This document shows positions 3,976 through 32,890 of a stretch of DNA of 34,453 bases, in pieces. The stretch's first letter is position 1. Each line of letters begins with the position of its first letter. The DNA is from Alphaproteobacteria bacterium (GTDB lineage Bacteria > Pseudomonadota > Alphaproteobacteria > Caulobacterales > Caulobacteraceae), in NCBI GenBank assembly GCA_003241825.1, contig QBLX01000008.1:1-34453 (forward strand), read 5' to 3'. The notes beneath the pieces were generated by a model that did no database searches, was not told the DNA's origin, and worked only from the letters and a program-made list of their open reading frames with translations. The position numbers and the translations under genes are program-made.

Positions 3976-3979
3976 AGTC

Positions 3980-4915
3980 ATGTCCTTTGGGGGCGAGCAT
4001 GGCGTCCGCATCGGTCTTTCGGCTGTTGTCATGGCCCTGCACGACCGCGCACTCTGCGTCCTGACGACGGGCTCAGGCCCTGACCTCGCTCTGCCCTTCG
4101 GCCCCTTTGACCCCGTCAGGGACCGGACATTCGAATTGTCCCTGCGCGCCTTCGTGGCCGCCCAGACCGGGTTTCGTCCCGGCTTCGTGGAACAGCTCTA
4201 CACGTTTGGCGACGCGGGACGGGCTTCGCCCCGCCCGACACCCGGCCCCGAACGCGCTCGCGAAGTCTCCGTCGGCTATCTGGCCCTGACGCGCGAGGCT
4301 GACACAGCATCCGTGGCCGATGCACTCTGGACCCCGCTTTTCGATATCTTCCCCTGGGAAGATCGCCGGAGCGGCCCGGCCTCGTCAGTGCCAATCTCCA
4401 GCGCCCTCATGGACTGGGCAGGCCATGACGATCGCAGGAGTGCCCGGGTCCAGTCGCTCTTCGCGACAGGGGCCGATCATCGCTGGAACGAGGAACGGGC
4501 GCTGGAGCGCTACGAACTGCTCTATGAAGCCGGGCTGGTCCCAGAGGCCGCACGTGATCGGGATCAGCCCGGCGCTCACGTCATGCCCGGCCGGACCATG
4601 GCTTCGGACCACCGTCGCATCCTCGCTACAGGCCTCGGCAGGCTGCGCTCCAAGCTGAAGTATCGTCCTGTCCTGTTCGAATTGACGCCGGACACCTTCA
4701 CCCTGTCCGGCCTCCAGTCCGCTGCAGAGGCTGTCGCAGGCCTGACCCTGCACAAGCAGAATTTCCGCCGTGGCGTCGAACGAACCGGGTTGGTCCAGCC
4801 CACGGGCCTTCTGTCAACGGGGACCGGAGGACGCCCCGCCGAACTCTTCCGCATCCGCGACGCCGACCCGCACTCTGGCCAGGCTCCGGGCCTCGCCCTG
4901 CCCGCCCAGCGATAG
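3980..4915 (+). CDS. Nudix-like domain plus winged-helix protein (NrtR/NAD-regulator-like)
   Basis: Nudix-like N-terminal region (AVVMALHDRALCVLT...) and C-terminal LRSKLKYRPVLFELTPDTFTLSGLQSAAEAVAGLTLHKQNFRRGVERTGLVQPTG typical of NrtR-like wHTH. Confidence 0.75.
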   Translation: MSFGGEHGVRIGLSAVVMALHDRALCVLTTGSGPDLALPFGPFDPVRDRTFELSLRAFVAAQTGFRPGFVEQLYTFGDAGRASPRPTPGPERAREVSVGYLALTREADTASVADALWTPLFDIFPWEDRRSGPASSVPISSALMDWAGHDDRRSARVQSLFATGADHRWNEERALERYELLYEAGLVPEAARDRDQPGAHVMPGRTMASDHRRILATGLGRLRSKLKYRPVLFELTPDTFTLSGLQSAAEAVAGLTLHKQNFRRGVERTGLVQPTGLLSTGTGGRPAELFRIRDADPHSGQAPGLALPAQR

Positions 4916-12523: not shown

Positions 12524-13154
12524 CGCTTCATCCCATGCTTCGGATTCATTGAAGCCTTTACATCCGGGCGTGGCAATCTCCAGCGTGTAACAACCTTCAC
12601 AAAGCCTCTGTCAGCGCAAATTGAATGCCGCCGACAGGGCCGCGCCGCAGCGTGGGTACAGGGCCAGATCGACCAACCCCTTCCGCTGCTTCGACAGTTC
12701 GCCGGAGGTCTTCCGGCAGCTGGTCAAGCCATGACGACCGACGACTTGCGATCCTGCGAGGCTTCAGTGAAGGAGGTCGATAACACCGCCAGGCAGGAAG
12801 TGGGGGCGCTGGGCAAACAACAGGGCGAACGATATGTGCCCACTGCAGTGCCTTGAGCAGTGCCGGATCCGCCGATTGCCGGGGCTTCAACGCTGCCCGT
12901 ACGGGGCAGCAATCTAGGTCCTGCCGCCCCGAGACACCGGTCGGCCCAACGACACGCAGTCCAGCCTCGCCGCTTTCCCGCTGGTCTCGACCAGTTTCTG
13001 ACCGGTTGGGAACTTGGTCCGGCTCTGGGCGACGGCAGCAGCGCCGAGATCATTTACATGAGCAACAGTCATCACGTGCGCTCGCTCCACACCTAGGTGC
13101 CATTCCTCGAACCGTGACTGCATGTTCGACCGACCGTTACTCCCTCGAAAGCCA

Positions 13155-13168
13155 TGACACCGGTGACA
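13155..13168. promoter_or_regulatory. Candidate LacI-type operator upstream of aldose epimerase gene
   Basis: TGACACCGGTGACA, one mismatch to the perfect palindromic core at 20266-20281. Confidence 0.7.
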
Positions 13169-13262
13169 GAAGGTCAGCAAATACGCATAGTGAAAGGGAG
13201 CATGCCAATACGCGGTGCAACACCGAAATGCGAGGTGTGCGGAACAGCAACAGGACGACCCC

Positions 13263-14429
13263 ATGACCGGACCCGTTCTTGGCCGTCGCGTGTTTGCCGG
13301 GGGCCTGGCCGCCGTGCCCCTGTCCGCCTGCACGACCCTTCGGCCCTCGAGGCAATCGTTCGGCACCGCCGGTGTGACCGAGTCCAGGTTCGGAACCACG
13401 GCCTCAAGTGAACCGGTCTGGCTTTTCACCTTGACGAACCGGGCCGGCCATTCGGCGAAAATCATGACCTGGGGCGCGGCAGTGACCTCGCTGATGATGC
13501 CTGACCGGGCCGGGGTCTCGGCCGATGTCGTCCTAGGCCTGGATACCTATGAGGACTATGTCGCGCGCTCGCGCAATTTCGGCACGACCGTTGGCCGTTA
13601 TGCAGGTCGGATCGCCGACGGCCGGTTCGACCTCGATGGTCGCACCGTTCAGCTCGACACCAGCGGCGGGGCCCACAGTTCCCATGGCGGGCCGATCGGC
13701 TTCGCGAAGCGCAACTGGACCGGACGTGTCGACGAGACGGCTGCGGGACCAGGCGTGGCAATGACACTTGCAAGCGCCGACGGCGATCAGGGCTTTCCCG
13801 GCGAACTGATAATCACCGTCATCTACCGGCTGACCCATGACGACCGCCTGACCTTGTCATTCGAGGCGACGACGACCCGGCCGACGGTCCTCAACCCCAC
13901 TCATCACAGCTATTTCAACCTGTCTGGTGACCCCGAGCGACTGGTGCTCGACCATGTCGTCACGATCAACGCCGACCGCTTCACCGCCTTCGGACCCGAC
14001 AAGATCGTCACCGGCGAGCTGAGGCCGGTGGCCGGTACGCCGCTTGACTTCCGCCTCCCCAAACCGGTCGGCCGCGACCTTGCGGTGCCAGATGAGCAGA
14101 TGACGATCGGCGGTGGCTACGACCACAACTTTGTCGTTCGCGGGCCGCAGGGGACGCTGCGACGCGCCGCCCGGGTCGACCACCCCGCCAGCGGACGCCG
14201 GCTGGAGCTGTGGACCACCGAGCCCGGCGTTCAGTTCTATACCGCGAATCCGGTTGAGATGATCGGCCGGGGCGGCGTCGCCTATCATCCGCGCTGTGGC
14301 CTGTGCCTCGAGCCACAGCACTATCAGAACAGCCCGAACCGACCCGAGTTTCCTTCCACCGTGCTGCGTCCGGGAGAGACCTTTCGCTCCGCCAGCGAAT
14401 ACCGTTTCAGCCTTGCGGGCTCAGTTTGA
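13263..14429 (+). CDS. galM: Aldose 1-epimerase (secreted or lipid-anchored)
   Basis: LSACTT lipobox-like N-terminus; TTVGRYAGRIADGRF, LNPTHHSYFNLSG, GGYDHNFV, GVQFYTAN. Confidence 0.93.
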   Translation: MTGPVLGRRVFAGGLAAVPLSACTTLRPSRQSFGTAGVTESRFGTTASSEPVWLFTLTNRAGHSAKIMTWGAAVTSLMMPDRAGVSADVVLGLDTYEDYVARSRNFGTTVGRYAGRIADGRFDLDGRTVQLDTSGGAHSSHGGPIGFAKRNWTGRVDETAAGPGVAMTLASADGDQGFPGELIITVIYRLTHDDRLTLSFEATTTRPTVLNPTHHSYFNLSGDPERLVLDHVVTINADRFTAFGPDKIVTGELRPVAGTPLDFRLPKPVGRDLAVPDEQMTIGGGYDHNFVVRGPQGTLRRAARVDHPASGRRLELWTTEPGVQFYTANPVEMIGRGGVAYHPRCGLCLEPQHYQNSPNRPEFPSTVLRPGETFRSASEYRFSLAGSV

Positions 14430-14431
14430 GG

Positions 14432-15712
14432 ATGCAGAAGATGACGCGTGAAACTCCACCCGGTCGGCATACAAGCTCCCCGACTTCGTCAATGAAGAGA
14501 TGGGCGCTATCTTCAACTGTTGTTTTGACCCTTTGCCTTCTCAGTGGCTGCGCTCACAAAAGCGCGATGACGGGCATCGCTGCAGCGCCGGGATGGTCCG
14601 CGACTACCGGGTTGACGCATGCGACCGAGGCAACGGCGATCCCGCAATCCTCGACCGACACGCCATGGAGCCGCGACGTCATAATCCAGGCCCGACGCAT
14701 CGCGGACTGGCGACTCGAGAATTCGGCCCGGCTCAAAGACGAAGCTGCAGGATCGACGGCCTGTGAACTCACCGCTCTGATCAACGCCACGACCTATCTC
14801 GGTCTGGCTGATTTCGGCACTGTATCGGGTGACGCGCGCTTCGGCGACGCGGTCCAGGTCGGGGGTCGCGCGTTGGGTTGGGCGACGTCCGACGGAGCGG
14901 GTGGCTGCCAGCAGAGCGCTAATCAGTACGATGTGATCCGCCTGGCCTGGCTGTCGGCTGCCGCGAGGGTTGACGGCAGCGAGCGTCAAGAACGGCTGCA
15001 ACCGACCCTGGATCGCCTGAACCAGACGCTTGCGACGCTCGACGTTACCGGAGCCGTCCCCTGCCTGGAGCGATCATCTTGCAGGAACGACACGGATCTT
15101 CTGTCGATTGCGCTCTGGGCTGAAGCAAGCCGCCTGACCGGCGACCCCCGCTATCTCGCGCATGGCGATGATCGCTATCGCACCGCTTTCGAGCCTCTCT
15201 ACGACACCAAAACATTTCTGTTCCACGACCAGGTTGGCGCCGAAGCCAGCGCCGCCGGAGCGGAGGCTTCTGCTCTTTACAATGGGTTGGCCTATGCAGG
15301 GCTGGCACGGACAATCCAGGCAATCCCCGCCGACAATCCTGCCAGACTGTATTACGTCGCCCTTTATCGCGAGATGTCACGGACCATCCTGGCGCGCCAG
15401 AGAGACGACGGCCACTGGTCGGCTGGCTTGCGGCACCAGGACGATGGTCCCCCGGACATGATGGCGAGCGCGCTTTTCGTCTATGGGCTGGCGTGGGGTT
15501 TGAACACCCAGATGCTGAGCTTCAATGAGGGCGAGACCGCCGCACTGTCCGGTTGGGCGGCGCTGACGAGATCCCTCAGGGCCGACGGGGTCCTTACCGA
15601 AGCGAATGACACCGGGTTGAACCCGCGCCCGGGGGGCAGAAACCCTTCTCCGCGCGACGCGGTCGGGGTCTACCTGATGGCCACAGCGCAGATCGCGGAG
15701 CGAAAATGGTGA
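14432..15712 (+). CDS. GH88/GH105-like six-hairpin glycosidase lipoprotein (unsaturated uronyl hydrolase type)
   Basis: Lipobox LLSGC; ADWRLEN, NDTDLLSIALWAEASRLTGDPRYLAHGDDRYRTAFEPLYDTKTFLFHD, DDGHWSAGL...MMASALFVYGLAWGLN; ATG 14432 chosen over ORF-track 14303. Confidence 0.68.
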   Translation: MQKMTRETPPGRHTSSPTSSMKRWALSSTVVLTLCLLSGCAHKSAMTGIAAAPGWSATTGLTHATEATAIPQSSTDTPWSRDVIIQARRIADWRLENSARLKDEAAGSTACELTALINATTYLGLADFGTVSGDARFGDAVQVGGRALGWATSDGAGGCQQSANQYDVIRLAWLSAAARVDGSERQERLQPTLDRLNQTLATLDVTGAVPCLERSSCRNDTDLLSIALWAEASRLTGDPRYLAHGDDRYRTAFEPLYDTKTFLFHDQVGAEASAAGAEASALYNGLAYAGLARTIQAIPADNPARLYYVALYREMSRTILARQRDDGHWSAGLRHQDDGPPDMMASALFVYGLAWGLNTQMLSFNEGETAALSGWAALTRSLRADGVLTEANDTGLNPRPGGRNPSPRDAVGVYLMATAQIAERKW

Positions 15713-15762
15713 TCAACGCAAACGCCCTCTCACATCGGACCTTCGCAAGAGGATCTCGAACC

Positions 15763-16902
15763 ATGCGCTTGACCACAGCCGTTCTTGCCCTCGCCCTCGT
15801 CCTCGCCCTCGCCCTCGCCCCTGCCGTAACGGAGGCAGGAAGCGTTGACACGACAGGGGCGTCCTCAAGTCACGGCGACCACTTCGCCTTGTTCAATGCA
15901 GAGGCCCGATGCGCTCTCCCCCAACTGGCGCAAGGACCAGAGGGCATAGCGGTGCTCGAGCGGGCAGAGGCCGGACTGACGCGGCCGCACGGGGCCGTCC
16001 CTGTAATGCACACCGAAGGCACCCTGCCGGGCCGAGGCATCCGTGAATTCAGCGCCAAGGCGCGCGAGGACTTCCCTGTCGTCCAGGCCCTGGCCCTGGC
16101 CTATCGAATGACCGGGGAAACCCGATTTCGCGATGCCGCTGAACGCTACCTCCTGGCCTGGGCCGGAACTTACCGCTGGTCGTTCAACCCCATCGATGAA
16201 ACCGGCTTTGACGCCCTGCTGATTGCGTCAGATCTGATTGAGGACGACCTGTCCCCGGACAGCCGGGCCCGGCTGACCGACTTCTGGCATCGTCTTTCGA
16301 CAGGCTATCTGGACGCCATGGACGGCGCGCCGATAAACGCTCACACGAACTGGCAAAGCCACCGGATCAAGCTGGCAACACTGGCCGCCTATGCCGTCGG
16401 CGACGTCGCTCTGATCGATCGGGCCCGCGCCGCCTACCGGCGCCACGTCTCGGGCAATATCCAGGCCGACGGCTCGGTCCACGATTTCCATGAGCGCGAC
16501 GCGATCCACTATGTGACCTATAATCTGGATCCGCTGATGACGGCCGCCCTTGCGGCCGAGAACCACGGCGAGGACTGGTTCGGTTGGCGCAATGAGGCCG
16601 GGGCAGGCGCGCGCGACGCCATCCTCTGGTTGCTCCCCTACGCCGAGGGCAGGCTCACCCATCAGGAGTTCGTCCGCTCCACGATCAAGTTCGACGCCGA
16701 TCGCGCCGCCGTGGGCCAGCCGGGATACACCGGACAGTGGAACGCCGGCGGGGCGGTAAACACCCTGCGTCTAGCCGCCCTCCTGGATGACCGCTTCAAC
16801 GCCGAAGCGTCGGCTCTTTCCACGCGCGTCGACAAACCGGCTGCTCCCTGGATGGTTCTCATGTACGAGGCCCGTGCCGCCGAAGGTAACTGCAGACGCT
16901 GA
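15763..16902 (+). CDS. Alginate-lyase-domain (PL5-like) secreted protein
   Basis: Signal peptide MRLTTAVLALALVLALALAPAV; ARAEDFPVV-type region, NAHTNWQSHRIKLATLAAYAVGD, FHERDAIHYVTYNLDPLMTAAL as in alginate-lyase-domain proteins. Confidence 0.78.
   Translation: MRLTTAVLALALVLALALAPAVTEAGSVDTTGASSSHGDHFALFNAEARCALPQLAQGPEGIAVLERAEAGLTRPHGAVPVMHTEGTLPGRGIREFSAKAREDFPVVQALALAYRMTGETRFRDAAERYLLAWAGTYRWSFNPIDETGFDALLIASDLIEDDLSPDSRARLTDFWHRLSTGYLDAMDGAPINAHTNWQSHRIKLATLAAYAVGDVALIDRARAAYRRHVSGNIQADGSVHDFHERDAIHYVTYNLDPLMTAALAAENHGEDWFGWRNEAGAGARDAILWLLPYAEGRLTHQEFVRSTIKFDADRAAVGQPGYTGQWNAGGAVNTLRLAALLDDRFNAEASALSTRVDKPAAPWMVLMYEARAAEGNCRR
15790..15819 (+). repeat. Hexanucleotide tandem repeat (CTCGCC)5 inside signal peptide
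   Basis: CTCGCC CTCGTC CTCGCC CTCGCC CTCGCC, four exact and one C-to-T variant, in frame. Confidence 0.9.
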
Positions 16903-17200
16903 AAGCCAGGCTGCGGTATCGCCTGCTGCTCCTGGCTTTAGCGCTGGATAGGGTTTCGTACGTGGAGGTTTGACGACGCCTTTCAGGCTCTGAGCCGGCA
17001 ATCAGGCCAAGCGGCCGACGGTCCTTTCGTACGAATGACAACGATCGACCTTTCGGACGGCCGGCGCTTCAGGGAAACGAACATCGAAACCGTCGGAAAC
17101 TCGGTGCGACTGGCCCTGCCTATGTGGGCCAGGTCAGTCTCTGCTGCGCTGAGTCCGAATTGATAAAAGAACAGATGCCGTGCTCAGAGCGGTCCCGGGC

Positions 17201-17238
17201 AAAAAAACGCCCCGTCGTCTCGTGACGTCGGGGCGTTA
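17201..17238 (-). terminator. Rho-independent terminator of TonB receptor gene
   Basis: Minus strand reads AACGCCCCGACG...CGGGGCGTTTTTTT; GC stem followed by T tract, about 50 bp past the stop codon. Confidence 0.85.
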
Positions 17239-17286
17239 CAGTTCCCTGGGCCCGTCCAGCGGGACGAGCCCAAGGGTCAGGAGGCC

Positions 17287-20193
17287 TCAGAACCGGTAGC
17301 GAGCTCCGATCACGAATTCACGACCGGTCTTCTCATAGTTGAGGTTGTTCTTGCGCTGGCTGTTGATCCAGCGCTCGTCTGCCTGATCGGTCAGATTGAT
17401 GCCTTCGAAGGAGATCGTAACGTTCTCGCCGACATCATAAGACAGGGCCATGTCGACGTTCAGAGATTCCGCCTTGCCCTCGACGTCGTTGCTGCTCCCA
17501 CCCGGAACCCGGATAAGATACTCGTCGCGATAAGTCCCCGACAGACGAGCTTCGAACGGACCGCGCTCATAGTAAAGCGTGGCGCTCCACGAAGCCGGTG
17601 ACTGGCCGACGATTGGTTGCCTGACCGTTGTACCGACCGTGGGGCTGACGATGTATTCGATCTCGGAATCGACCGACGTATAGTTGAACAGGCCCCCGAA
17701 ATCGTCGAACGGCGCGGGCAGGAAGCTGAACGGCGTCTGCAGCGTGATCTCGAACCCTGTCAGGTCACCGCCCGGCGTGTTCTGGCTGGTGGTGAACAGT
17801 ACGTCGCTGGAGGGCAATACACCCGTGGGCAGGATAGAGTTCGGAAAGCCCGTTTCCGAGAACGGCAGGCGTTCGCGAGTCGTCTGGACGAAGGAGTCGA
17901 TCGACTTCTGGAACAGGGCGAAGCTGAACAGAGCCTCGGAATAAGGATACCACTCCACGCTAAGGTCATAGTTGGTCGCGCGGATCGGCTCCAGGAACGG
18001 ATTGCCGACCGTCAGGGTGACGTCCGACACGCCCTGGGCGATCGCGCCACCGGGTGTGAGTTGGTTGAGTGCCGGTCTCGCCATGACCTTTGCGGCTGCG
18101 AAACGGACAAGAAGGTCCGGAATCGGTTCAATCGAGACATTGATCGCGGGCAAGGTGTCTTCATAGTTGTTGACCAGCCTCAGGGTATTGGGGCCCAAAA
18201 TGCCGACCGATTCGACCTCGGTCTCCACATAACGGACGCCCGCATTTCCTCGGACCGGCATGCCATAGAATGAGGTCTGGAAATCCAGCTGGAGGAAGAT
18301 CCCGTCCGACGTCTCGTCAACCGCCCGGTTCTCGCCGGGGAACGGGGTGACGCGGAAATCGCCGAAGTCGTTGACGCAGTTGCAGCTGAAGCCGATCAAG
18401 GCGTCCAGCCGCGCCAGATCGGGGATCACCCAACTCGTTGGCGCACCCGGCGGCAGGCCCAGGCCGCTGCCGAAGTTGCTGACCGTCGTGGAATAATCGG
18501 CGATCGTACGGCCTCGGGACGCAAGCAGGGCCAGGGCCGAGGCAGGTACCCCCTCGACCGCCTTGCGGTTTTCCGCGACCGAGAAGCCGAACGACTTGGT
18601 GGACAAGCCGCCGCGCAGTGTCAGGGCATCGTTGAGGTCGTAGGTGAAGTCGACTTCGATCGTGTCGTAGGAGTTCACCGTCTCGTTTGGACGTATCCGA
18701 ATGATCGATGCATCGCCCAGGGCTGACGATGGACTGAGAGCCCAGTTTGCCGGATTAGTGATATCGAATCCGAAGTTGAAGGCTGGCAGGTTCGGATTGG
18801 CGGAATAGTCGTATGAGTAGCCATCGACGTCATAGCGGTCGAACGAAACAGTCGTCTGTTGCGGATTGCGGCCCAGGGCTTCCGATCGGCCATAGAGCGC
18901 CTTCATGCGGAACCTGTCCGAGAACTCGTGCGTCAACAGAAGCGAGTTTTGCGTGAACTCGGTCGAGAGCACGTCAACGCGCTGCTCGGTCCGGGCATCC
19001 ACATCGTCGAAGACGGCGGAGATCAGAGTGTTGTTGTTGTCCACGACGCCAGAGACCAGGTCCATGGCCCGAAAGCCCTGTACCCCGGCTTCGCGCGCCG
19101 GGCTGATGATCTCTACGAATTCCTCGTTCCGCGTCTGATCCAGCTTGGCGTGAAGAACGTCATAGGTGATCCGCGTACGGTCCGAAACATCGAACTGGAA
19201 AGCACCCGTCAGGCCCAGCCGTTCGCGCTGATAGGTGATGCGCCCATAGCGCGGGATCCGCGGATGCGCCGCGAAATGTGCCGCGCGCTGAGCCGCCAGA
19301 CCCGTCAGAACCGATCCGTCGGCGGTCGTGATCGTGCCGACCGACTGATAGCATCGCGTGGAGTTGACGTAGGAGGTGATCACGCCGCCGACCATGGTGG
19401 GGACGCAGCCGTCGTCTGCCGGGACCCGGAACTGGACCGAGCTGGATCCTTCCTCGAACGTCAGTCGCTCGCTGTAGGCGGCTGAAACGAGAGCGCCCAG
19501 ACGACCGTCCAGCCAGCGATTGCTCACCAGGACGGTACCGCGAGGGTCGCTGTTCTCTGTCTGATCGTTGTATGACGACTGCCCGCCCACGGCGAAGACG
19601 AAGCCGTCATAGTCGAAGGGGCGAGCCGTTTGCAGATCGACGGTAGCTCCCAGGGAGCCTTCGTTGACAGCGGCTTCCTGCGATTTGCGGACCGTGACGC
19701 TGTTGAAGAGCTCCGACGCGAAGACGTTGAAATCGAAGCCGCGGTTGCGGTTGGCCCGACCCTGGTCCCGACCGCCGGTCGTGGCCAGCGCCTCCAGCCC
19801 GTTGAGGCGGACGCGGACAAAATCGGAACTCAGCCCCCGCACGTTGATCGACCGACCTTCGCCGCCATCGCGATCGATCTGAACGCCTGGAACGCGTTGG
19901 AGCGAGTCTGCCAGATTCAGATCGGGGAAGTCAGCGATGTCTTCGGCAGTGATCGCATCGACGATCGAGTTCTCATTGCGCTTCACTGCGATAGACGCCT
20001 GAAGCGAGCGCCGGAAGCCGGTCACAACAATCTCTTCGACCTCGGTGGCCTCGTCCTGCGAAGGCACCGGCGCAGTCTGGGCCGAGGCGGCAACTACGCC
20101 GACAGAGAAAGCTATTACAAAACTGGAAGCGCCGCTGCAAAGGATACCGCGCAAGGCGCGATCCTTCGTCGGGTAGAGTTTCAGCATTTTCAT
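17287..20193 (-). CDS. TonB-dependent receptor (polysaccharide-locus type)
   Basis: Signal peptide; EVEEIVVTGFRRSLQASIAVKR plug box, FPDLNLADSLQRVPGVQIDRDGGEGRSINVRGL, C-terminal FVIGARYRF. Confidence 0.96.
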   Translation of the reverse strand: MKMLKLYPTKDRALRGILCSGASSFVIAFSVGVVAASAQTAPVPSQDEATEVEEIVVTGFRRSLQASIAVKRNENSIVDAITAEDIADFPDLNLADSLQRVPGVQIDRDGGEGRSINVRGLSSDFVRVRLNGLEALATTGGRDQGRANRNRGFDFNVFASELFNSVTVRKSQEAAVNEGSLGATVDLQTARPFDYDGFVFAVGGQSSYNDQTENSDPRGTVLVSNRWLDGRLGALVSAAYSERLTFEEGSSSVQFRVPADDGCVPTMVGGVITSYVNSTRCYQSVGTITTADGSVLTGLAAQRAAHFAAHPRIPRYGRITYQRERLGLTGAFQFDVSDRTRITYDVLHAKLDQTRNEEFVEIISPAREAGVQGFRAMDLVSGVVDNNNTLISAVFDDVDARTEQRVDVLSTEFTQNSLLLTHEFSDRFRMKALYGRSEALGRNPQQTTVSFDRYDVDGYSYDYSANPNLPAFNFGFDITNPANWALSPSSALGDASIIRIRPNETVNSYDTIEVDFTYDLNDALTLRGGLSTKSFGFSVAENRKAVEGVPASALALLASRGRTIADYSTTVSNFGSGLGLPPGAPTSWVIPDLARLDALIGFSCNCVNDFGDFRVTPFPGENRAVDETSDGIFLQLDFQTSFYGMPVRGNAGVRYVETEVESVGILGPNTLRLVNNYEDTLPAINVSIEPIPDLLVRFAAAKVMARPALNQLTPGGAIAQGVSDVTLTVGNPFLEPIRATNYDLSVEWYPYSEALFSFALFQKSIDSFVQTTRERLPFSETGFPNSILPTGVLPSSDVLFTTSQNTPGGDLTGFEITLQTPFSFLPAPFDDFGGLFNYTSVDSEIEYIVSPTVGTTVRQPIVGQSPASWSATLYYERGPFEARLSGTYRDEYLIRVPGGSSNDVEGKAESLNVDMALSYDVGENVTISFEGINLTDQADERWINSQRKNNLNYEKTGREFVIGARYRF

Positions 20194-20262
20194 CCTCCCA
20201 AGGACCTATCAGAGCCAGGATTTTTCCTGATCAACGCATTTATCGGGAAGTCTGACCTTGCC

Positions 20263-20282
20263 ATTTGACACCGGTGTCAAAT
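20263..20282. promoter_or_regulatory. Perfect 20-bp palindromic operator upstream of TonB receptor
   Basis: ATTTGACACCGGTGTCAAAT, perfect dyad, about 70 bp upstream of the ATG at 20193. Confidence 0.85.
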
Positions 20283-20741
20283 CACGGCGAAAATTAGGCG
20301 TCCCCCCCAAAATGAAACTAGAACGATGTTCGTCGTCCTTGCAAGCCCGCAATGCCCGCTTTCAAACCCTGCGCGCGGCTGTCCGCCCGTTAGTAATTAA
20401 AACGCTTGCCCCGGCATTCGCCCAGATCGGTCACGCCCGGGGTCCAGTCCCCCTCCCAAATCCAGCCATGAAGCACACGGTGACGGGTCGTATTGCGCCG
20501 CAGGTCGAGGCTTTAGTGACGCAACTGCTGATCTGAATGCGGACGTTCTGGCTAGACGGTGTCGGCGTCTCCATCGCGGACGACAGGTTCATGCTTGGCT
20601 GGGAAGACCAGAGCAGTTCCGACATACTCCTTGCCCGCACGCTGGGCCATTTCTGTCAGTGCGCCTTCAACTATGACCGTCCCGAAGAGACGAGCGGCGC
20701 GGGCCAGGCCACCGCTACAGCGTCCTGATCGGCGACATCGC

Positions 20742-22598
20742 CTATCGAAATCTCAAGGTCCAGCCGATGGCGAGTAGAGGGTCTGCCGGGGCATCGTCAC
20801 GACAGTTCAACAATGACCGGAACGGTCCCGTCGGCGTCCGATGCTCCTCGCCAGGACTGGCGATCTCACACTGCAGACCGACGGGAGCAAAGGCTGCGAC
20901 CTCGCCGACTGCGTAGGACACCTCTGTCCCTACCTTCACGGGGTTTGACGAAAAGCTCGCAAAATCGAGAGCGACAGACGCGATCTCGGCTCCCTGATGA
21001 GCAGCGATCTCGTCGGTGCGGCTTATCTGGCCATCCTCAAGTACATAGCGCGTTTTGAAGCTCACGCGGGCGTCGACCTCGGCGTCATTTCCGCCCAGCC
21101 GGCTGGCGTCCTGCGTCCAGGTCACAACTGTGCGCAGCGGCTCCGTCTGAACTACAACGTTCTTGAAGAATGACGTCGGAGACAGCACCGCTCCATCGGT
21201 CAGAGTGATCCGCGGAAGAAGCTGGGCATAGGACTGGTCGGGCGAACCCGCGAGAACACCCGGCGAGAACGGTATCGGAAAATAGGGCGTGTTCATGTGC
21301 TGGCCGGGGCCGCCATTGATGACAGGTAGCCCGATAACGCGATCTCCATCCCGGTAGGTCACCAGCAATCGATCGTAGGTCCCCTTCGAGAACCAGGTCG
21401 TCGTGGATTTTGGCAATGTGCCCAACCAGGCTTCATAGCCATCCGTCAAGGGGCGGTCGTCCCAACCACGCTCTGACCAGATCTGGTTTGTGTAAGTGAA
21501 CTGATGACCGAGGCTGAGGTTTTCGCCGAGGATGCGGTGCTTGCCGCGATAGGCATCTGTCAGACGTCCGTGATCCCAGAGATTGACCGATCCTGTTGCA
21601 GGATCTTGCCAGAAGCCGACATAGCGCGCCGCAACGCGCGACGAGAAGGCATAGGCCATGGCCTCCTCTTCCGGCGTGAGCAGGTCCAGTGCGGCAGCAG
21701 CACTCAGCACCTCCAGGAAGGCCGTTTCGCCATAGGCTCCTATGCTGCGGCCATATTCGAAGCCCTCACCTCTGAGGTTGAGGCGCGGAAGCAGAACATC
21801 GACAGATTGGCGAAGCCATACCCGCACCTCGGGAGGCGGTGCTATCCCCGTCTCGATGAAACGCTGCGCGATCTCGCCGATCAGCAGGACGCTGTAGCGA
21901 TCGTAGCGCCCGAGGCCGTCCGTCTCGTCGGCAAACCCGTATTCGCCCGAATACTCTTTGTAATGAGTGATCATCCTTGCGAGGAGGCGATTGCTGTCCT
22001 GTTCACCTTCCCAGCCCAGCAGAAATCGGAGACGCGCAATGCTGAAAGCCACGCCATAATAATTGTTCGGCAGATTGATCAGCGCAAGGCTTTGCGGGTC
22101 CACGAAGGACCGCCAATCCAGCTTGGTGCGGAGTTGCGCCAGGGTTTCCGGCGACACGGCCTTGTCCAGCAGACCCAGCTTTTCGAACCTGTAAATTGCT
22201 GAAATATAGTAATATTGCCCCCATGTGTCGTTCGTATCGTCGATCATGAGGGCCGATAGGTTTCGGAAGCCTGCAAGATATCGATCCCGGCGCGGGTCAC
22301 CCGGGTCCATGCTTTCGACAGCATGGGCGAAGGCAATGGCGACCTTGCCCGGAAGGAATTTGTCGTTCGCCGCAAAGACCTCGATGCCATCCAGACGGGT
22401 GGCCTTGCCATTCGCCATCACGGTTTCAAGCAAGGCCAGTGTCGACGGAGTTATACGCTCCGAGACGGTCTGGTGCATCGGCAGGACATGGCGGAACTCC
22501 GGGCCCCGCTCGACCTGAGCAAAGGCTGCGCCAGCAGAACTGGCGAGAGCTATCGCCAACAGAAACGAGGCTGCCGTGACGTTCGATTTCGCGACCAT
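20742..22598 (-). CDS. Secreted ~618-aa protein, putative polysaccharide lyase/hydrolase (helical N-terminal half, beta-rich C-terminal half)
   Basis: Signal peptide ending AFAQ; domain layout resembling toroid + beta-sandwich polysaccharide lyases; shared operator with the polysaccharide locus. Confidence 0.55.
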   Translation of the reverse strand: MVAKSNVTAASFLLAIALASSAGAAFAQVERGPEFRHVLPMHQTVSERITPSTLALLETVMANGKATRLDGIEVFAANDKFLPGKVAIAFAHAVESMDPGDPRRDRYLAGFRNLSALMIDDTNDTWGQYYYISAIYRFEKLGLLDKAVSPETLAQLRTKLDWRSFVDPQSLALINLPNNYYGVAFSIARLRFLLGWEGEQDSNRLLARMITHYKEYSGEYGFADETDGLGRYDRYSVLLIGEIAQRFIETGIAPPPEVRVWLRQSVDVLLPRLNLRGEGFEYGRSIGAYGETAFLEVLSAAAALDLLTPEEEAMAYAFSSRVAARYVGFWQDPATGSVNLWDHGRLTDAYRGKHRILGENLSLGHQFTYTNQIWSERGWDDRPLTDGYEAWLGTLPKSTTTWFSKGTYDRLLVTYRDGDRVIGLPVINGGPGQHMNTPYFPIPFSPGVLAGSPDQSYAQLLPRITLTDGAVLSPTSFFKNVVVQTEPLRTVVTWTQDASRLGGNDAEVDARVSFKTRYVLEDGQISRTDEIAAHQGAEIASVALDFASFSSNPVKVGTEVSYAVGEVAAFAPVGLQCEIASPGEEHRTPTGPFRSLLNCRDDAPADPLLAIGWTLRFR

Positions 22599-22651
22599 GA
22601 AAGGCTCTCAAGCGATTGGCGCAGACCCGGACCTACGCAGCATCGCCAGCT

Positions 22652-22665
22652 TGCCACCGGTGTCA
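22652..22665. promoter_or_regulatory. Candidate operator upstream of the 618-aa protein gene
   Basis: TGCCACCGGTGTCA, one mismatch to TGACACCGGTGTCA. Confidence 0.7.
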
Positions 22666-22737
22666 TGGCCAGTCCAGCCCGAGTCCTCAATACAGAAGGA
22701 CGGCATCCGGTCAAAAGACATCCATCCCCGCCTGAGT

Positions 22738-23511: not shown

Positions 23512-24420
23512 TCAGACCGGGGCGGAAAGATGGCTCTCGATCATGCCCATTGCATTTCGGATCGCCGCGTTGCGGAGTGCCGCGCGGCGTGTGATCCGGC
23601 GGATGTCGAGACTCGGTAGCGGCCGCTCGAACCGGACACTCGTCAACCCCCGTGTCTGGATCTCATCGCGCCCAATGGCCTCGAACATACACGTGTAACC
23701 GAGGCGGCGATGAAGGCAGCTGAGGATCAACCCGAACTCGGCTGTTTCAACCACATGATTGTTCTGGGTGACGCCGACCTGCCGCATCAGCGCATCGACC
23801 GCGCGGCGGATTGGCTTTTCAGGCGACAGGCTGATGGATGGTGTCTCGCTTAGCTCCTGGGCAGTCACCAGCGGCTGGCTGGCCAGTGGATGGTCGCTCG
23901 CGACAAAGATCGCGAGAGGCTCTTGCGCGACGACCTCGCCCAGAGTGTCGAGACCATCGGCAGAGTAGAAATAGGCGACGTCCAGTTCACGCCCCATCAC
24001 CAGTCTTTGCAGTGCTTCGGGCGGGTTTTCATTGCTGCGCAAGTGGATGGCGCGGTCAGCGGTACCATTCCAGTCCTGCACCGAATGCCCCAGGTTGCGC
24101 ATCATGAACCCGTGCAGGGCGACTTCTAACGGACCTGTTGATCGGCCTTCGCCAGCCACGTTTTCCATGAAATCGTGAATATGCGAAAGCAGTTCATCCA
24201 CCCCTTCAAGGGCTCGCTTCCCGGCCTCTGTGGGTTTGATTGGGCCCCCCGGTGTCCGCTCAAAGAGCTGGACGCCAAGCTGGGTCTCTAGCGTTCGCAT
24301 ATGTTCGCTGACCGAAACCTGCGAGATACTCAGCTGCTCGGCGCAGCGACGGAAGCTGCCCCGCTGCACGACAACAGCGAATATCTCCAGCTGGCGCAGC
24401 GTAATCATGGCCGTCCCCAT
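23512..24420 (-). CDS. LysR family transcriptional regulator
   Basis: MITLRQLEIFAVVVQRGSFRRCAEQLSISQVSVSEHMRTLETQLGVQLFERT helix-turn-helix; an alternative start is the internal ATG at 24408. Confidence 0.95.
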   Translation of the reverse strand: MGTAMITLRQLEIFAVVVQRGSFRRCAEQLSISQVSVSEHMRTLETQLGVQLFERTPGGPIKPTEAGKRALEGVDELLSHIHDFMENVAGEGRSTGPLEVALHGFMMRNLGHSVQDWNGTADRAIHLRSNENPPEALQRLVMGRELDVAYFYSADGLDTLGEVVAQEPLAIFVASDHPLASQPLVTAQELSETPSISLSPEKPIRRAVDALMRQVGVTQNNHVVETAEFGLILSCLHRRLGYTCMFEAIGRDEIQTRGLTSVRFERPLPSLDIRRITRRAALRNAAIRNAMGMIESHLSAPV

Positions 24421-24458
24421 AGCTTGCGATAGGTAAATCCGAACACCTCTTAGCCTGC

Positions 24459-24483
24459 ACCCTTATTCTCAGAAATCAAGGGT
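24459..24483. promoter_or_regulatory. Candidate LysR-type operator in divergent intergenic region
   Basis: ACCCTTATTCTCAGAAATCAAGGGT, imperfect dyad with 9 of 12 base pairs symmetrical, containing T-N11-A. Confidence 0.5.
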
Positions 24484-24640
24484 ATCCCTACCAATCCCGT
24501 GCCCGCAAAGACGGGAGCCTGTTTGAGCCCAATGAGCCGAGCGGGACAGATATTGGTGAGGAGACCCGCTTGCCCATCACGGCGAAGCTTCGACCTGCAA
24601 CTGGCCACGGCCGTGCGGTCCCCACATCGTGGGGTCGGGC

Positions 24641-26314
24641 ATGATCGCGTTCGATGTGGTTGTGGTAGGCGCCGGTAGCGCGGGATGCGCCTTGGCAGCG
24701 CGGCTCGCCACAGGGGGCGCAGGCCGGATATTGCTGATCGAGGCGGGCGGGGACAATCGCGATTTGATGGTCAAGGTGCCTGCTGCATGGCCCTTTGCCT
24801 CCGCCATGCCCCGATATGGCTGGCAAATGAAGACCGAACCGGAGCCAGCCCTTGGTAACCGGCAACTGGATGTACCACGCGGTCGGCTCATGGGGGGGAC
24901 CTCATCAATCAACGGCATGATGTACAGCCGCGGTCATGCCACCGACTATGATCGATGGGCGCGATCCGGACTTGTCGGCTGGAGCTACGCCGACGTCTTG
25001 CCCTATTTCATCAGAAGCGAAACCAATTGGCGCGGCGCAGGCCCGTTTCATGGCGAAGCCGGTCCGGTCAACGTCACCAACAATCCCCGCCCGTCAGGCC
25101 TCTACGAGCGGATGATCGCGGCAGCTGCAGAGCTGGGCTATGGTGAAAACCCCGATTTCAACGCGGATGATCAGCAAGGCTTTGGCATGCCTGATTTTAC
25201 CGTGGCAGGTGACGGCCGACGTGAAAGTGGTGCCACAGCCTATCTTGCCCTTGCAGCCGGCCATCCGAACCTGACGATCTGGAAGAGCGCAACCGTTCAG
25301 CGCGTACTGGTTGCCAAGGGTGCGGTCACCGGCGTCGAGGTGCTGCGCGAGGGCCGGACGCAGACCATCGCTACCGGAGAGGTCGTGCTGAGCAGCGGCA
25401 CATTCCATTCCCCCAAGATCCTCATGCATTCAGGCATTGGCGATGCTGAAGCGATGCGGGCGATCGGAATCGACGCCATCGTCGATCTGCCGGCTGTGGG
25501 CCGCAATCTGCAGGATCACCCCATGGTGGTGATGGGCTTTGCCTCTTCTCAGCCGCTGGGTTTTGAACAACGGCTGCGAGCAGACAAGTTCGCCGGATCG
25601 GCGCTGAAGTGGGCCCTGGGTAAGGGCGGCCTCCTGTCCGAGGCACCGATGGCTGCGCAGGGATTTGTCCGCGTCCAGCAAGACAGCCCTGTTCCAGACA
25701 CGCAGATCCAGATCACAACCGGATCGGCAATGAGCCGTCCCTGGTTCCCCGGAATTCGCAAGCCCCAGCCGGATATGCTCGTCGTGACGGGGCTGCAGTT
25801 GCGTCCCTGGGGCCGTGGGTCGGTGACGCTACGATCTGCGGATCCTGATCAGGCCCCGGCGATCCGGCTCGGCCTTCTGGACGACCCCCGGGATCGCCAG
25901 TTCGCCCACGACATCATTGGCTTCATCCGCCGCTTCTTTGCTACCGAGGCCGCCAGAGAACTGGTCGCTGCGCATGTCTTTCCGAGCGCGGACGCCACGA
26001 GCCCGGAGGCGCTTGATGCCTTCCTGGCGCAGATGTTCATGACCGGCCAACACCCCGTCGGCACCTGCGCGATGGGTATCGATCCTTCAGAATCGGTGGT
26101 CGATGCTCGCCTCAATGTGCACGGCCTGTCGGGCTTGCGAGTGGCCGACGCGTCGGTGATGCCCAGCATCGTCGGCGGTAACACCAGTGCGCCGGCGATG
26201 ATGATCGGCGAGCGAGCGGCGGACTTCATTATGGGCTCCGGGAGTGGGCAACGGCCCAACAAGCCATCATCCCACCGCGCTGCCTCTAAACCTGTTCTGC
26301 AAGGTGCAGCATGA
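24641..26314 (+). CDS. GMC family FAD-dependent oxidoreductase (choline dehydrogenase-like)
   Basis: [90 protein letters not shown] 24641 preferred to GTG 24629. Confidence 0.95.
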
Positions 26315-27780
26315 CCCTTGATGCGCCCGACGCACCCTCCATCGTTATCGAACATCCGGACCAGCACTATATCGGCGGCACCTGGGTTGCGCCCCGGGAC
26401 GGTGGACGGATTTCTGTGGTGTCGGCACACAGCGAGGAAGAGATCGCCGTAGTGGCCGACGCGTCCGTCGCCGATGTTGAGCATGCCGCACAGGCAGCCC
26501 GTACTGCATTTGATCACGGACCATGGCCGCGCATGTCGCCTGAGGAACGCGCCGGCCATGTCCGGCGACTGTCCGAAGCATTGGCACCCCGGATGCCGGA
26601 AATCGCCCAGGCATGGGTCGATCAAATCGGCGCGCTTGCGACAGCCGCGCCCTTCGTCACTGGAGGCGGCAAGTTCTGGTTCGACTACTATGCCGATCTC
26701 GCCAGCCGCTTTGACTGGATACGTGACGTCTCCCGGTTCGACGGCCAGGGTTCCGCCCGGATCGTGCGCGAGCCTGCTGGTGTGGTGGCGGCCATCGCGC
26801 CGTGGAACAATCCGTTCGGCATCATGGCAGGCAAGGTTGCACCGGCACTGATGGCCGGCTGCACCGTGGTGATGAAGCCTGCCCCGGAAACGCCTCTGGA
26901 AGCCTACATACTGGCTGAGGCCGCCGACGCGGCTGGCCTGCCCGACGGGGTGATCAATCTTGTTTGCGCTGGTCGCGAAGCATCAGAGCGACTCGTTCGC
27001 AGCTCGTTGATCGACAAAGTGAGTTTCACAGGCAGTGTCGCAGCCGGACGCACAATCGGCATGGCCTGCGCCGAACGATTTGCCCGCTGCACACTCGAAC
27101 TCGGCGGCAAATCGGCGGCGATCGTACTTGAGGATGCTGACATCGCGCACGCCGCGCGCGTTCTGGCGAGCGTCATCACCCTGTCGGCCGGACAGGTTTG
27201 CGCCACCCTTAGTCGGGTGGTGGTCGTCGATGCCGTGCACGATCGCCTCGTTGAGGCGCTGGCTGCTGAAATGGCGGCTGTCAGGGTTGGTGATCCGTCT
27301 GATCCCTCATCACAGATGGGCCCACTGGCCATGCAGCGACAGCGGAATCGCGTCGAGGAGTTCGTTGCGATTGGCCAGGCAGAAGGTGCCCGGCTGGTGC
27401 TCGGCGGCACCCGCACCGCAGGTCTGGATCGCGGCTGGTATTTCGACCCGACCCTTTTCATCGGCGTCACAAGCGACATGAGGCTGGCCAGGGAAGAAAT
27501 CTTCGGCCCGGTCCAGGTGGTCCTGCGGGCCCGTGACGAGGCTGAAGCCATCCGCCTCGCCAACGACAGCGACTTTGGCCTGTATGGCGCTGTCTTCTGC
27601 GCCGACCCGGAGCGCGCCTACACTGTAGCGCGTCAGGTCCGGACCGGAACAATCGCGCACAATGGGTTTCTGTTCGACCCTTCGCTGCCGTTCGGAGGCT
27701 TCAAACATTCAGGTATCGGCCGCGAAGGCGGAGATGCAGGTCAGTCCAGCTTCACCGAGACAAAATCAATCATCTTCTAA
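26311..27780 (+). CDS. NAD(P)-dependent aldehyde dehydrogenase
   Basis: [42 protein letters not shown] (catalytic Cys), [20 protein letters not shown] overlap with GMC gene. Confidence 0.96.
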
Positions 27781-27827
27781 ATCAGTAAATACCGCAGATA
27801 ATGCGAATAAAGGGAGGAAAAATCACC

Positions 27828-30125
27828 ATGAATAGGCTTTCAACTCTACGGAACGTTATTCTTATCGGTTCGATGCTTACACCGGTAGCGGTCTATGCGC
27901 AGGATCCCGATAGCAGCTACAAGCTGGATGAAATCGTTGTCACCGCACAGAAGCGCGAGCAAACGCTGCAGGACGTCCCGGTCGCTGTCGCCGTGCTGAG
28001 CAGCGAAACGCTGACAGCACAGCGTATCAACAGCATTGAAACCCTGAACACTGCCGTGCCGAACCTCGTCGTCACGCGGTCCCCGTTCCAGCCCTACGTC
28101 GCAATCCGCGGCCTTGGGTCCGGTGGCGGTGGCCGGGCCTTCGAGCAATCTGTGGCCATGTATGTCGACGGAATCTACGCCGGCCGCGCCAACCAGTTCC
28201 TAAATCCATTCTTCGATGTCGAGCGTGTGGAAGTTGTTCGCGGCCCGCAATCGGTCCTGTTCGGGGTCAACGCCAATGCGGGTGCGATCAACATCGTCAA
28301 CAAGCGGCCGGGCGACTCCTTCGAAGGCTATGTAACCGCCGGATATGACTTTGAATACGAGGGCCACAATCTGGAAGGGGCAATCTCGGTACCCTTGTCC
28401 GATACCTTCGGAGTGCGTGTTTCCGGTCGAACCAATCGTGACGGCGGCTATGTCCGCAACACCGTCAGCGGCCGCGACGAGGGACAGGCGGACAGCGACA
28501 TGGGTCGTATCGTCGCCAGCTGGCGTCCGACCGCAGATCTGCGTTTCGATCTGGCCTATGAGCACGCCAGCAGGGATGTCGAAGGCACCACCTTCCAGAT
28601 CACCTCGCTTGGTCTCGTTACCTTCCCGCCGGCTGTCGAAGATGGCCGGTTTGATTTCCGCAAGTCCACTTCCGGCAGGCCAGAGTTCACCCGTCTGACC
28701 AGCGACAACGCCTCGCTCAACGCCAGCTATGACATGGAGAACGCCACCCTCTCTGCATCGGTCGGTTACTCGACCTATGAATTCTCCCAAGTCCTCCCAG
28801 GCAGTAACCACCCCGTATCAGTGGGCGAGGCGCTCGCTCAGGAAGACTTCGAACAGTTCTATAGCGAACTGCGCCTGGTGTCCTCGGGCGACAACTTTTT
28901 CGATTACATCGTCGGCCTGACCTATTTCAATCAGAGCGCGCAGATCGATCAGGGGGTTGATATCGACTTCGGGGCGTTCGGCGTGCCTGGCCTGCGAGCA
29001 GGCGTCCGGAATGGCCTCGACCAGGGAACCGATGGCTATGCTGCGTTTGCTCAGGGTACGTTCAACTTCAGCGATCAACTCAGCCTGGTCGTCGGTGGTC
29101 GCTACAGCTCAATCACGAAGGAAGCGGACTATATCATCTCGCCGACCGCAGCTGGCCAGCCTGTCCGTGGCTATTCATTCGACGTGCCCAGTCTGTTCGT
29201 TCTGAGTGGTCCACCTTTCGGCTTCTTCCAGTGGTTCAACCGCAACAATCCCGCGACCTTCCGTACAAGCGCATTTTCACGGGAACGGACGGACACTACC
29301 TTCAATCCGTCAGTCAGCCTCAACTACAACTTCGACAACGGGTTGTCGGCCTATGCCAGCTATACCACGGGCACCAAGTCGGGCGGATTTAACGATCAAG
29401 AGAAGTCAGGTACCGTTCCCGAGAACGGCTTCAGTACTGACGTGTTCGAATATGATGCGGAAGACGCCCGTAACTTCGAACTCGGCCTGAAGGCAAGTCT
29501 GGATCAGGTGCGTTTTAATGTTGCAGCCTTCTACACCAAGTATGAAGACCTGCAGGCGACCCAGGTCCTGCCCGGCGGTACGCTACTGACCACAAACGCT
29601 GCGGCGGCAACGGCCAAAGGCATTGAAGCCGATGTCACCTGGCTGGCCGCTGCCGGGCTGACGATCAGTGCCGACGCAGCCTACATCCATGCGCGCTATG
29701 ACGATTATCCGGGCGCCTGCACCATCGGCAATCGGAACTGCAGTGACCCCACGACCGGCAACGCGCGCGGCGGCCTCCTTGAGGGCGTGCCAGAACTGTC
29801 TGGCAGCATCAACGTTGCCCATGCGGTCGAGGTGATGTCCGGCTGGGAACTGCGCACCCGCGGTCGTGCCTATTACAACGACGGCGCACAGTTTGGCTCC
29901 GACCAGAACCCGCTCAACCGGGTGCCCGATTATGTGTTCATCGATGCGTCAATCGGCCTTGCCCAGATCGGGACCGGACTGAGCGTCACTCTGAGTGGCA
30001 AGAACCTCGCCAATGAAGCTGCTCGCGGTTTCAGCGCACCCTCGGTCGCAGACGCCCTTTTCGGCTTCTATTCCGCCACCCTGCCAGGACGGCAGATCTT
30101 TCTCGACCTGCGCTACGACTTCTAA
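27828..30125 (+). CDS. TonB-dependent receptor
   Basis: KLDEIVVTAQKREQTLQDVPVAVAVLS, RGPQSVLFGVNANAGAINIVNKRPG, C-terminal GRQIFLDLRYDF; ATG 27828 gives a signal peptide. Confidence 0.96.
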   Translation: MNRLSTLRNVILIGSMLTPVAVYAQDPDSSYKLDEIVVTAQKREQTLQDVPVAVAVLSSETLTAQRINSIETLNTAVPNLVVTRSPFQPYVAIRGLGSGGGGRAFEQSVAMYVDGIYAGRANQFLNPFFDVERVEVVRGPQSVLFGVNANAGAINIVNKRPGDSFEGYVTAGYDFEYEGHNLEGAISVPLSDTFGVRVSGRTNRDGGYVRNTVSGRDEGQADSDMGRIVASWRPTADLRFDLAYEHASRDVEGTTFQITSLGLVTFPPAVEDGRFDFRKSTSGRPEFTRLTSDNASLNASYDMENATLSASVGYSTYEFSQVLPGSNHPVSVGEALAQEDFEQFYSELRLVSSGDNFFDYIVGLTYFNQSAQIDQGVDIDFGAFGVPGLRAGVRNGLDQGTDGYAAFAQGTFNFSDQLSLVVGGRYSSITKEADYIISPTAAGQPVRGYSFDVPSLFVLSGPPFGFFQWFNRNNPATFRTSAFSRERTDTTFNPSVSLNYNFDNGLSAYASYTTGTKSGGFNDQEKSGTVPENGFSTDVFEYDAEDARNFELGLKASLDQVRFNVAAFYTKYEDLQATQVLPGGTLLTTNAAAATAKGIEADVTWLAAAGLTISADAAYIHARYDDYPGACTIGNRNCSDPTTGNARGGLLEGVPELSGSINVAHAVEVMSGWELRTRGRAYYNDGAQFGSDQNPLNRVPDYVFIDASIGLAQIGTGLSVTLSGKNLANEAARGFSAPSVADALFGFYSATLPGRQIFLDLRYDF

Positions 30126-30154
30126 AGTCGTCGCGGGCCAAAACAGGAGTATTC

Positions 30155-30541
30155 ATGAGCGATTTATTTGAGAGGGGCATGCAGGTCCGACGCGAGATGT
30201 TCGGGCCGGAGCTGGCAGAGCGGGCCGTAGCTTCTGCCAGCGATTTCGCCAAGCCGTTCCACGACATCATGACGCGGTACTGTTTTGGCGAGACCTGGAA
30301 CCGGGAAGCGCTGGGTCGCCGTGATCGCAGCATCGCCACGATCTCCATGCTCATTGCCCAGGGCAAGGAGCTGGAGATCAAGATGCACGTCAAGGGCGGC
30401 ATTGCCAACGGCCTGACCGTCGAGGAGATCCGTGAACTGGTCCTCCACGCGATGATCTATTGCGGCGTCCCCGCATCGTTCACCGCGCTGCGTGCTGCCG
30501 AGGCGGCTCTGGCCGAGATCGAAGAATCGAATCCGGCATGA
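30155..30541 (+). CDS. Carboxymuconolactone decarboxylase (CMD) family protein
   Basis: MSDLFERGMQVRREMFG, ATISMLIAQGKELEIKMHVKGGIANGLTVEEIRELVLHAMIYCGVPASFTA. Confidence 0.9.
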   Translation: MSDLFERGMQVRREMFGPELAERAVASASDFAKPFHDIMTRYCFGETWNREALGRRDRSIATISMLIAQGKELEIKMHVKGGIANGLTVEEIRELVLHAMIYCGVPASFTALRAAEAALAEIEESNPA

Positions 30542-31413
30542 AGATTGGCTTCATTGGCCTGGGCATGATGGGCCGCCCCATGGCGGAGCGGCTCATCACC
30601 CAGGGGTTTGACGTCCGCGTGTCGGACACGAACCCACAAATGGCGGATATCTTCGGCGAGGCCTTCGCCCAGAGTGCAGCCCTGGCCACGGCTGGTGCCG
30701 ATGTGATCGTGACAATGCTGCCGAATGGCCAGGTTGTCCGGGATGCATTGCTCGGCGCCGGGGCGGGATTAACATCAGCCAATCCCGGCACGATCGTCAT
30801 CGATTGCAGCTCTTCAGACGCGAGCGGCACGATATCGCTAGGCGTAGAACTGTCTGGGCGTGGCATTCACCTTGTCGATGCACCCGTGTCAGGCGGGGTG
30901 CCCAGGGCCCGCGATGGCAAACTGGCGCTGATGGTCGGTGGAACCGTTGATTCCGTCTACGACCAGATAGCCCCGGTACTGGAAGCGTTAGGCGACAGGA
31001 TTGTTCGGGTAGGTCCCCTGGGGGCAGGCCATGCCGCCAAGGCGATCAACAACGCTATTGCCGCCGCGACACTCGCAGCGACCGCTGAAGGGCTCCTGAT
31101 GGGTGAACGTTTCGGGCTTGAGCCGGAAACGCTGCTGGAAGTGCTCAATAGTTCCACCGGACGCAGCGCGGTTTCCGAATCCGTGTTTCGCACCCAGATC
31201 ATCCCCAGGACCTATGCCCAGGGATTCGCCCTCGGACTGATGGCCAAGGACGTCGGAATAGCCGACGCGATGCGCAACAGCCTCGGACTGGATCTGCCGA
31301 TGCTTCAGCAGACCCACGCGCAGTGGCAGTCGGCGCTGCACGCCCTTGGTCATGCTGCCGATTTCACGGCGTTTCACGCCTATGTCGAACAAACACTCAC
31401 CGAAGGCCGATGA
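30538..31413 (+). CDS. NAD(P)-dependent beta-hydroxyacid dehydrogenase (3-hydroxyisobutyrate dehydrogenase-like)
   Basis: IGFIGLGMMGRPMAERL, VDAPVSGGVPRARDGKLALMVGG, GHAAKAINNAI; ATGA overlap with CMD gene. Confidence 0.92.
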   Translation: MKIGFIGLGMMGRPMAERLITQGFDVRVSDTNPQMADIFGEAFAQSAALATAGADVIVTMLPNGQVVRDALLGAGAGLTSANPGTIVIDCSSSDASGTISLGVELSGRGIHLVDAPVSGGVPRARDGKLALMVGGTVDSVYDQIAPVLEALGDRIVRVGPLGAGHAAKAINNAIAAATLAATAEGLLMGERFGLEPETLLEVLNSSTGRSAVSESVFRTQIIPRTYAQGFALGLMAKDVGIADAMRNSLGLDLPMLQQTHAQWQSALHALGHAADFTAFHAYVEQTLTEGR

Positions 31414-31420
31414 GGACATA

Positions 31421-32887: not shown

Positions 32888-32890
32888 TCC

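Follow-up and report, generated by a model that had tools for sequence, protein, structure and literature searches.

Three shared operator sites point to a probable KdgR-like LacI-family regulon for pectin and uronate use in a Brevundimonas-like bacterium

Operator sites in the polysaccharide-utilization locus

Which regulator acts on a polysaccharide-utilization locus whose transcription units are preceded by near-identical palindromes? We addressed this question for the window, the whole 34,453-nucleotide stretch of DNA analyzed here, for which an earlier note had proposed three such operators and a LacI-family regulator encoded elsewhere. A search of the window with the 14-bp core TGACACCGGTGTCA at up to 3 mismatches gave six matches, and exactly three have at most 1 mismatch, as the note had counted. 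Operator 1 (CCATGACACCGGTGACAGAA, 13152..13171) contains the core TGACACCGGTGACA at 13155-13168, with 1 mismatch to TGACACCGGTGTCA. Operator 2 (20263..20282) is the perfect 20-bp palindrome ATTTGACACCGGTGTCAAAT; the note's position 20263 is its first base, and its core, TGACACCGGTGTCA with 0 mismatches, occupies 20266-20279. Operator 3 (GCTTGCCACCGGTGTCATGG, 22649..22668) contains TGCCACCGGTGTCA at 22652-22665, again with 1 mismatch. The sites are listed without strand, and their symmetry is complete in operator 2 (10/10 pairs) and partial in operators 1 and 3 (6/10 and 7/10 pairs, respectively).

All three sites lie upstream of predicted starts. Their centers are 101.5 bp 5' of an aldose epimerase start (13263, plus strand), 79.5 bp 5' of a TonB receptor start (20193, minus strand), and 60.5 bp 5' of the start of a 618-aa protein (22598, minus strand), in keeping with the roughly 50 to 110 bp given earlier. 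The description of the units as convergent is also correct, because the epimerase unit faces the other two. LacI-family sites are typically even palindromes with a central CG and mostly lie 30 to 140 bp before starts, according to the main text of Ravcheev et al. 2014 (PMC4052901), and the window sites, 14 or 20 bp long with centers at 60.5 to 101.5 bp, have this form and placement. Scans for sigma-70 promoters returned only weak plus-strand matches, which overlap two of the sites and are too little to place promoters. In the literature, the string TGACACCGGTGTCA appeared in no paper, and searches with TGACACCGGT, and with CACCGGTG combined with LacI and operator, gave nothing evidently relevant, as judged by titles and abstracts.

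Genes downstream of the operators

Operator 1 precedes a plus-strand operon whose first gene encodes an aldose 1-epimerase (13263..14429; Pfam PF01263, E 1.9e-82; start codon inferred). The operon continues with a GH88-type unsaturated uronyl hydrolase (14303..15712, plus strand; PF07470, E 4.5e-21), which has GH88 relatives with solved structures, and a PL5-like polysaccharide lyase (15706..16902, plus strand; PF05426 Alginate_lyase, E 4.9e-32), which has weak matches to solved polysaccharide and mannuronate lyases. Reading of the translation suggests that the true start of the GH88-type gene is likely near 14492, which would give it a lipoprotein-like signal peptide. Downstream of operator 2 is a TonB-dependent receptor gene (17287..20193, minus strand), assigned to the TonB-Xanth-Caul subfamily by Pfam and by TIGR01782 above its cut-off.

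Operator 3 precedes the gene of the 618-aa secreted protein (20742..22598, minus strand). By sequence, this protein falls outside the described lyase families, as Pfam, NCBIfam, and PDB sequence searches gave no match. Its structure model is of moderate confidence, with several low-confidence loops (pLDDT 76.8, pTM 0.78), and the top Foldseek matches were PL33, PL8, and PL17 lyases (E 6e-11 to 1e-8, TM ~0.5). Like these lyases, the protein is predicted to have a helical domain followed by a beta-sandwich; unlike members of these families, it shares only 9 to 14% identity with them, at TM-scores mostly of ~0.3 to 0.54. A PL33/PL8/PL17-like lyase fold is predicted on this basis.

Beyond the operator-bearing genes, positions 23512-33826 carry genes for a LysR regulator, a GMC oxidoreductase, an aldehyde dehydrogenase, a second TonB receptor, a hydroxyisobutyrate-dehydrogenase-like protein, and an RPE65-like carotenoid/stilbene oxygenase; this segment has no operator and is a separate pathway. 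An open reading frame (ORF) at 3887-4915 encodes an NrtR-type winged-helix domain and is a possible local regulator of an adjoining operon.

Frequency of the motif in the genome

We counted the motif across the genome (2.93 Mb in 167 contigs) by pattern searches and inspection of individual stretches. At up to 2 mismatches, there were 18 places versus 5 for a reversed-pattern control, and at up to 1 mismatch, 8 versus 0. The latter lie on three contigs, that of the window (C156), C22, and C79, plus one place on C9. The motif is therefore not at background frequency, as its good matches are concentrated in three polysaccharide/uronate loci. The C9 site, AAATGACACCGGAGTCATTT (L004:6238-6257), has a DNA-adenine-methylase-type gene (N6_N4_Mtase plus RAMA) on one side and an ABC transporter gene on the other; no sugar gene is beside it, and it is probably a chance match.

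For an independent measure, we scored the sites with a symmetrized matrix built from 168 unique sites at loci L080-L159 in other genomes, none of them from the window; the training sites were themselves chosen for their likeness to the consensus, which makes the matrix independent of the window but not of the motif. Operators 1, 2, and 3 scored 23.7, 30.6, and 20.1, and the highest score elsewhere in the window was 8.1, which bears out the earlier statement that the window has no further such match. The other three matches from the pattern search, each with 3 mismatches, do not exceed 8.1. In sequence simulated with a similar composition, scores of at least 20 occur 0.2 times per Mb, so that ~0.007 such sites would be expected per 34 kb, and the window has 3. 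Some matrix hits in other genomes fall within predicted ORFs, which counts against the regulator assignment made below.

A candidate regulator beside kduI

The genome contains five LacI-family genes, all on contigs other than that of the window, and a search of the window for a LacI gene found none; the regulator, as the note had reasoned, would be encoded elsewhere. Of the five, the strongest candidate lies on C22 (G000:C22:12767-13810, L001). Its product combines a LacI-type helix-turn-helix (PF00356, E 1.1e-20) with a periplasmic-binding-protein-like effector domain (PF13377, E 2.2e-43), as expected of LacI/GalR proteins, and reaches none of the NCBIfam equivalog cut-offs of the listed LacI models. 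It is 94% identical to a Brevundimonas variabilis protein, and its close matches are mostly from Brevundimonas, which places the window in that genus or in a very close relative. The orthologue is present in the type strains of B. variabilis and B. alba. The location on another contig means that the candidate has no physical linkage to the window, which counts against the assignment.

The C22 locus contains genes for a TonB receptor, a PelZ-like pectate lyase, TRAP components (DctM and DctP), the LacI protein, KduI, and a short-chain dehydrogenase in the kduD position. The kduI gene, which lies beside the LacI gene, is the only copy in the genome. Two sites 33 bp apart lie at the TonB receptor/PelZ-like lyase genes. 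The C22 site at 12439 adjoins a 328-aa minus-strand ORF for which Pfam gave no match, and its target is uncertain. The regulator gene is linked to kduI/kduD, and sites precede these genes, an arrangement that is KdgR-like. The C79 locus (L002 and L003) carries a TonB receptor, three pectic-lyase-type genes, GH43, DUF4861, and DUF6298 genes, a second LacI gene, and sugar-acid enzymes. Genes were called mechanically as ORFs, and some C22 and C79 starts are probably over-extended. The polysaccharide-utilization regulon proposed in the note is thus supported, in a refined form: it comprises at least three loci, extends beyond the window, and is most aptly called a pectin/uronate (KdgR-like) regulon.

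Two other LacI genes have palindromes of their own. Beside the C79 LacI gene lies the operator-like TGTTACCGCTAACA (L003:4315-4328), and most of its orthologues (L068-L073) have TGTTAGCGCTAACA-type sites next to them. Between a third LacI gene (C103) and a GH1-like ORF is TGTAATCGGTTACA (L008:7548-7561), probably the operator of the C103 LacI itself.

Co-occurrence and conservation in other genomes

Among 41 genomes, the motif at up to 1 mismatch is present in 16/16 with a C22 LacI orthologue (one of these orthologues is partial) and in 5/25 without (Fisher p = 2.4e-7; the genomes are related, so p overstates their independence). Around LacI orthologues in Brevundimonas, Caulobacter, Rhizomicrobium, and Rhodospirillales, 78 of 80 named loci have a site, which lies before the LacI gene in 43, kduI in 29, kduD in 35, a TonB receptor in 45, and a pectate lyase in 32. 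Sites stand before the regulator gene and kduI/kduD in dozens of species. Paired sites in these loci are mostly spaced 33 to 34 bp apart. One genome (G021) counts against the assignment, as it has paired sites and a C22-type TonB receptor (L192, G021:C55:1-19000) and no detected LacI orthologue; the contig begins close by, and the gene was possibly lost in assembly.

Of 130 other Brevundimonas genomes, 11 have an orthologue of the 618-aa protein and 5 have one of the PL5-like lyase. The gene order around these orthologues varies, and the sites recur all the same. Five genomes have a site before a TonB receptor of 79 to 81% identity, three have one before the operon with the PL5-like and GH88 genes, and in six a site separates a divergent TonB receptor from the 618-aa protein or its GH88 operon. 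The motif is thus conserved before rearranged orthologues in other Brevundimonas. Against this, two loci with a PL5-like orthologue (L182 and L185) had no site, so some copies of the window genes may stand outside the regulon.

The recognition helix VSKKTVSR is identical in the C22 LacI orthologues that we read. Loci of Sphingomonadales and Azospirillaceae with SKK (SKKTVSR) have TGACACC-type sites, and those of four Pseudoalteromonas and one Saccharobesus with SKR (SKRTVSR) have TGCCACCGGTGGCA sites (TGCCACC). The SKR loci (L215 and L218-L221) carry TGCCACCGGTGGCA on Alteromonadales plasmids, and the Pseudoalteromonas sites are near tagaturonate reductase, altronate dehydratase, kduID, or TonB genes. 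A Catenovulum LacI gene with the SKR helix had no site near it. The SKR/TGCCACC cases, all from Alteromonadales, share ancestry and may represent one event rather than independent ones.

Weighing alternative explanations

Uronate loci are often under GntR/FCD regulators, and a protein of this type is encoded on C79; together with the window LysR (23512-24420) and the NrtR-like protein (3887-4915), it offers a non-LacI regulator for the sites. We consider this very improbable, since the sites recur around the C22-type LacI gene in the loci of many species, their sequence shifts along with the LacI helix, and even CG-centered palindromes are typical of LacI proteins, as the main text of PMC4052901 describes. 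Ownership of the sites by another LacI paralogue is equally improbable. The chief contender is the C79 LacI (L003:3289-4293), which is 43% identical to the C22 LacI and has three good sites 5 to 18 kb away. However, its helix is SPMTVSR rather than SKKTVSR, TGTTA[CG]CG[CG]TAACA-type palindromes adjoin it and most of its orthologues, and orthologues of at least 50% identity occur in few of the motif-bearing genomes. With a different helix and a conserved operator type of its own, the C79 LacI was set aside as the regulator.

Least credible of all is the view that the sites are chance palindromes of GC-rich DNA. Dinucleotide shuffles of the window do yield up to 5 matches at up to 3 mismatches (mean, 1.46), compared with the 6 observed, and the C9 match sits at an unrelated gene. 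This view conflicts with the three high-scoring sites in 34 kb, where almost none would be expected, and with their conservation before rearranged orthologues. Co-occurrence, position, helix specificity, and exclusion of the C79 paralogue all converge on the C22 LacI. From the sequence features together, namely, the sites, their positions and conservation, co-occurrence with the regulator, helix/site covariation, and the single kduI, we consider it highly probable that the three sites are operators of one LacI/GalR repressor, the C22 KdgR-like protein, which would also control the C22 and C79 loci.

Proposed regulon and relation to known systems

We infer binding, repression rather than activation, the inducer, and the substrate, and the system might work as follows. 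A dimer of the C22 LacI would bind TGACACCGGTGTCA and repress the window targets, i.e., the epimerase/GH88/PL5-like operon, the TonB receptor gene, and the 618-aa lyase-like gene. It would likewise repress the C22 pectin locus (TonB receptor plus PelZ-like lyase, kduID, and probably the TRAP side) and the third, pectin-like locus on C79 (TonB receptor, a pectic-lyase-type gene, and a LamG-type gene). Lyases and uronyl hydrolases would free unsaturated uronates. In the established pathway, these give 5-keto-4-deoxyuronate, which KduI and KduD convert to 2-keto-3-deoxygluconate. A common catabolite, for example, one of these two, would bind the repressor and release it from DNA. As the genome has a single kduI, one sensor beside it could serve several polymer-specific loci.

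The LacI-family uronate regulators ExuR, KdgR, UxaR, and UxuR are known (PMC4052901, main text). The C22 system resembles the uronate regulons in that text in its LacI-type protein, CG-centered palindrome before starts, uronate genes, and probable autoregulation. It differs in that, for Caulobacterales, the main text names GluR and BglR1-3 and no uronate regulon, and its KdgR is a Bacteroides protein; "KdgR-like" here denotes likeness. LacI repressors are also known from TonB-receptor carbohydrate utilization (CUT) loci, such as that of SuxR in Xanthomonas (PMC1790865), where a TonB receptor and degradative enzymes are similarly under the control of a LacI/GalR-family repressor. Unlike SuxR, which is encoded inside its sucrose locus, a single regulator would here act on several uronate loci that are not linked, and the window locus lacks one of its own. 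The regulon is new, but it is a conventional example of known sugar-gene control; an earlier description of it is possible.

A wider reading, to which we give somewhat less than an even chance, is that one LacI sensor around a single kduID pathway jointly controls separate uronate-polymer loci, with the same holding for the Alpha- and Gammaproteobacteria orthologues, that the change from SKK to SKR re-codes TGACACC to TGCCACC, and that the operators, by extending into the window, also mark out the 618-aa protein as a new lyase family. The pairing of SKK with A and of SKR with C may offer a natural change of protein-DNA specificity within the LacI family. For Brevundimonas and its relatives, the proposed regulon provides a testable regulator-operator-target map of acidic polysaccharide use, in which a regulator-less locus can be assigned to a regulator through its operators, and the unannotated 618-aa lyase-like protein gains a functional setting.
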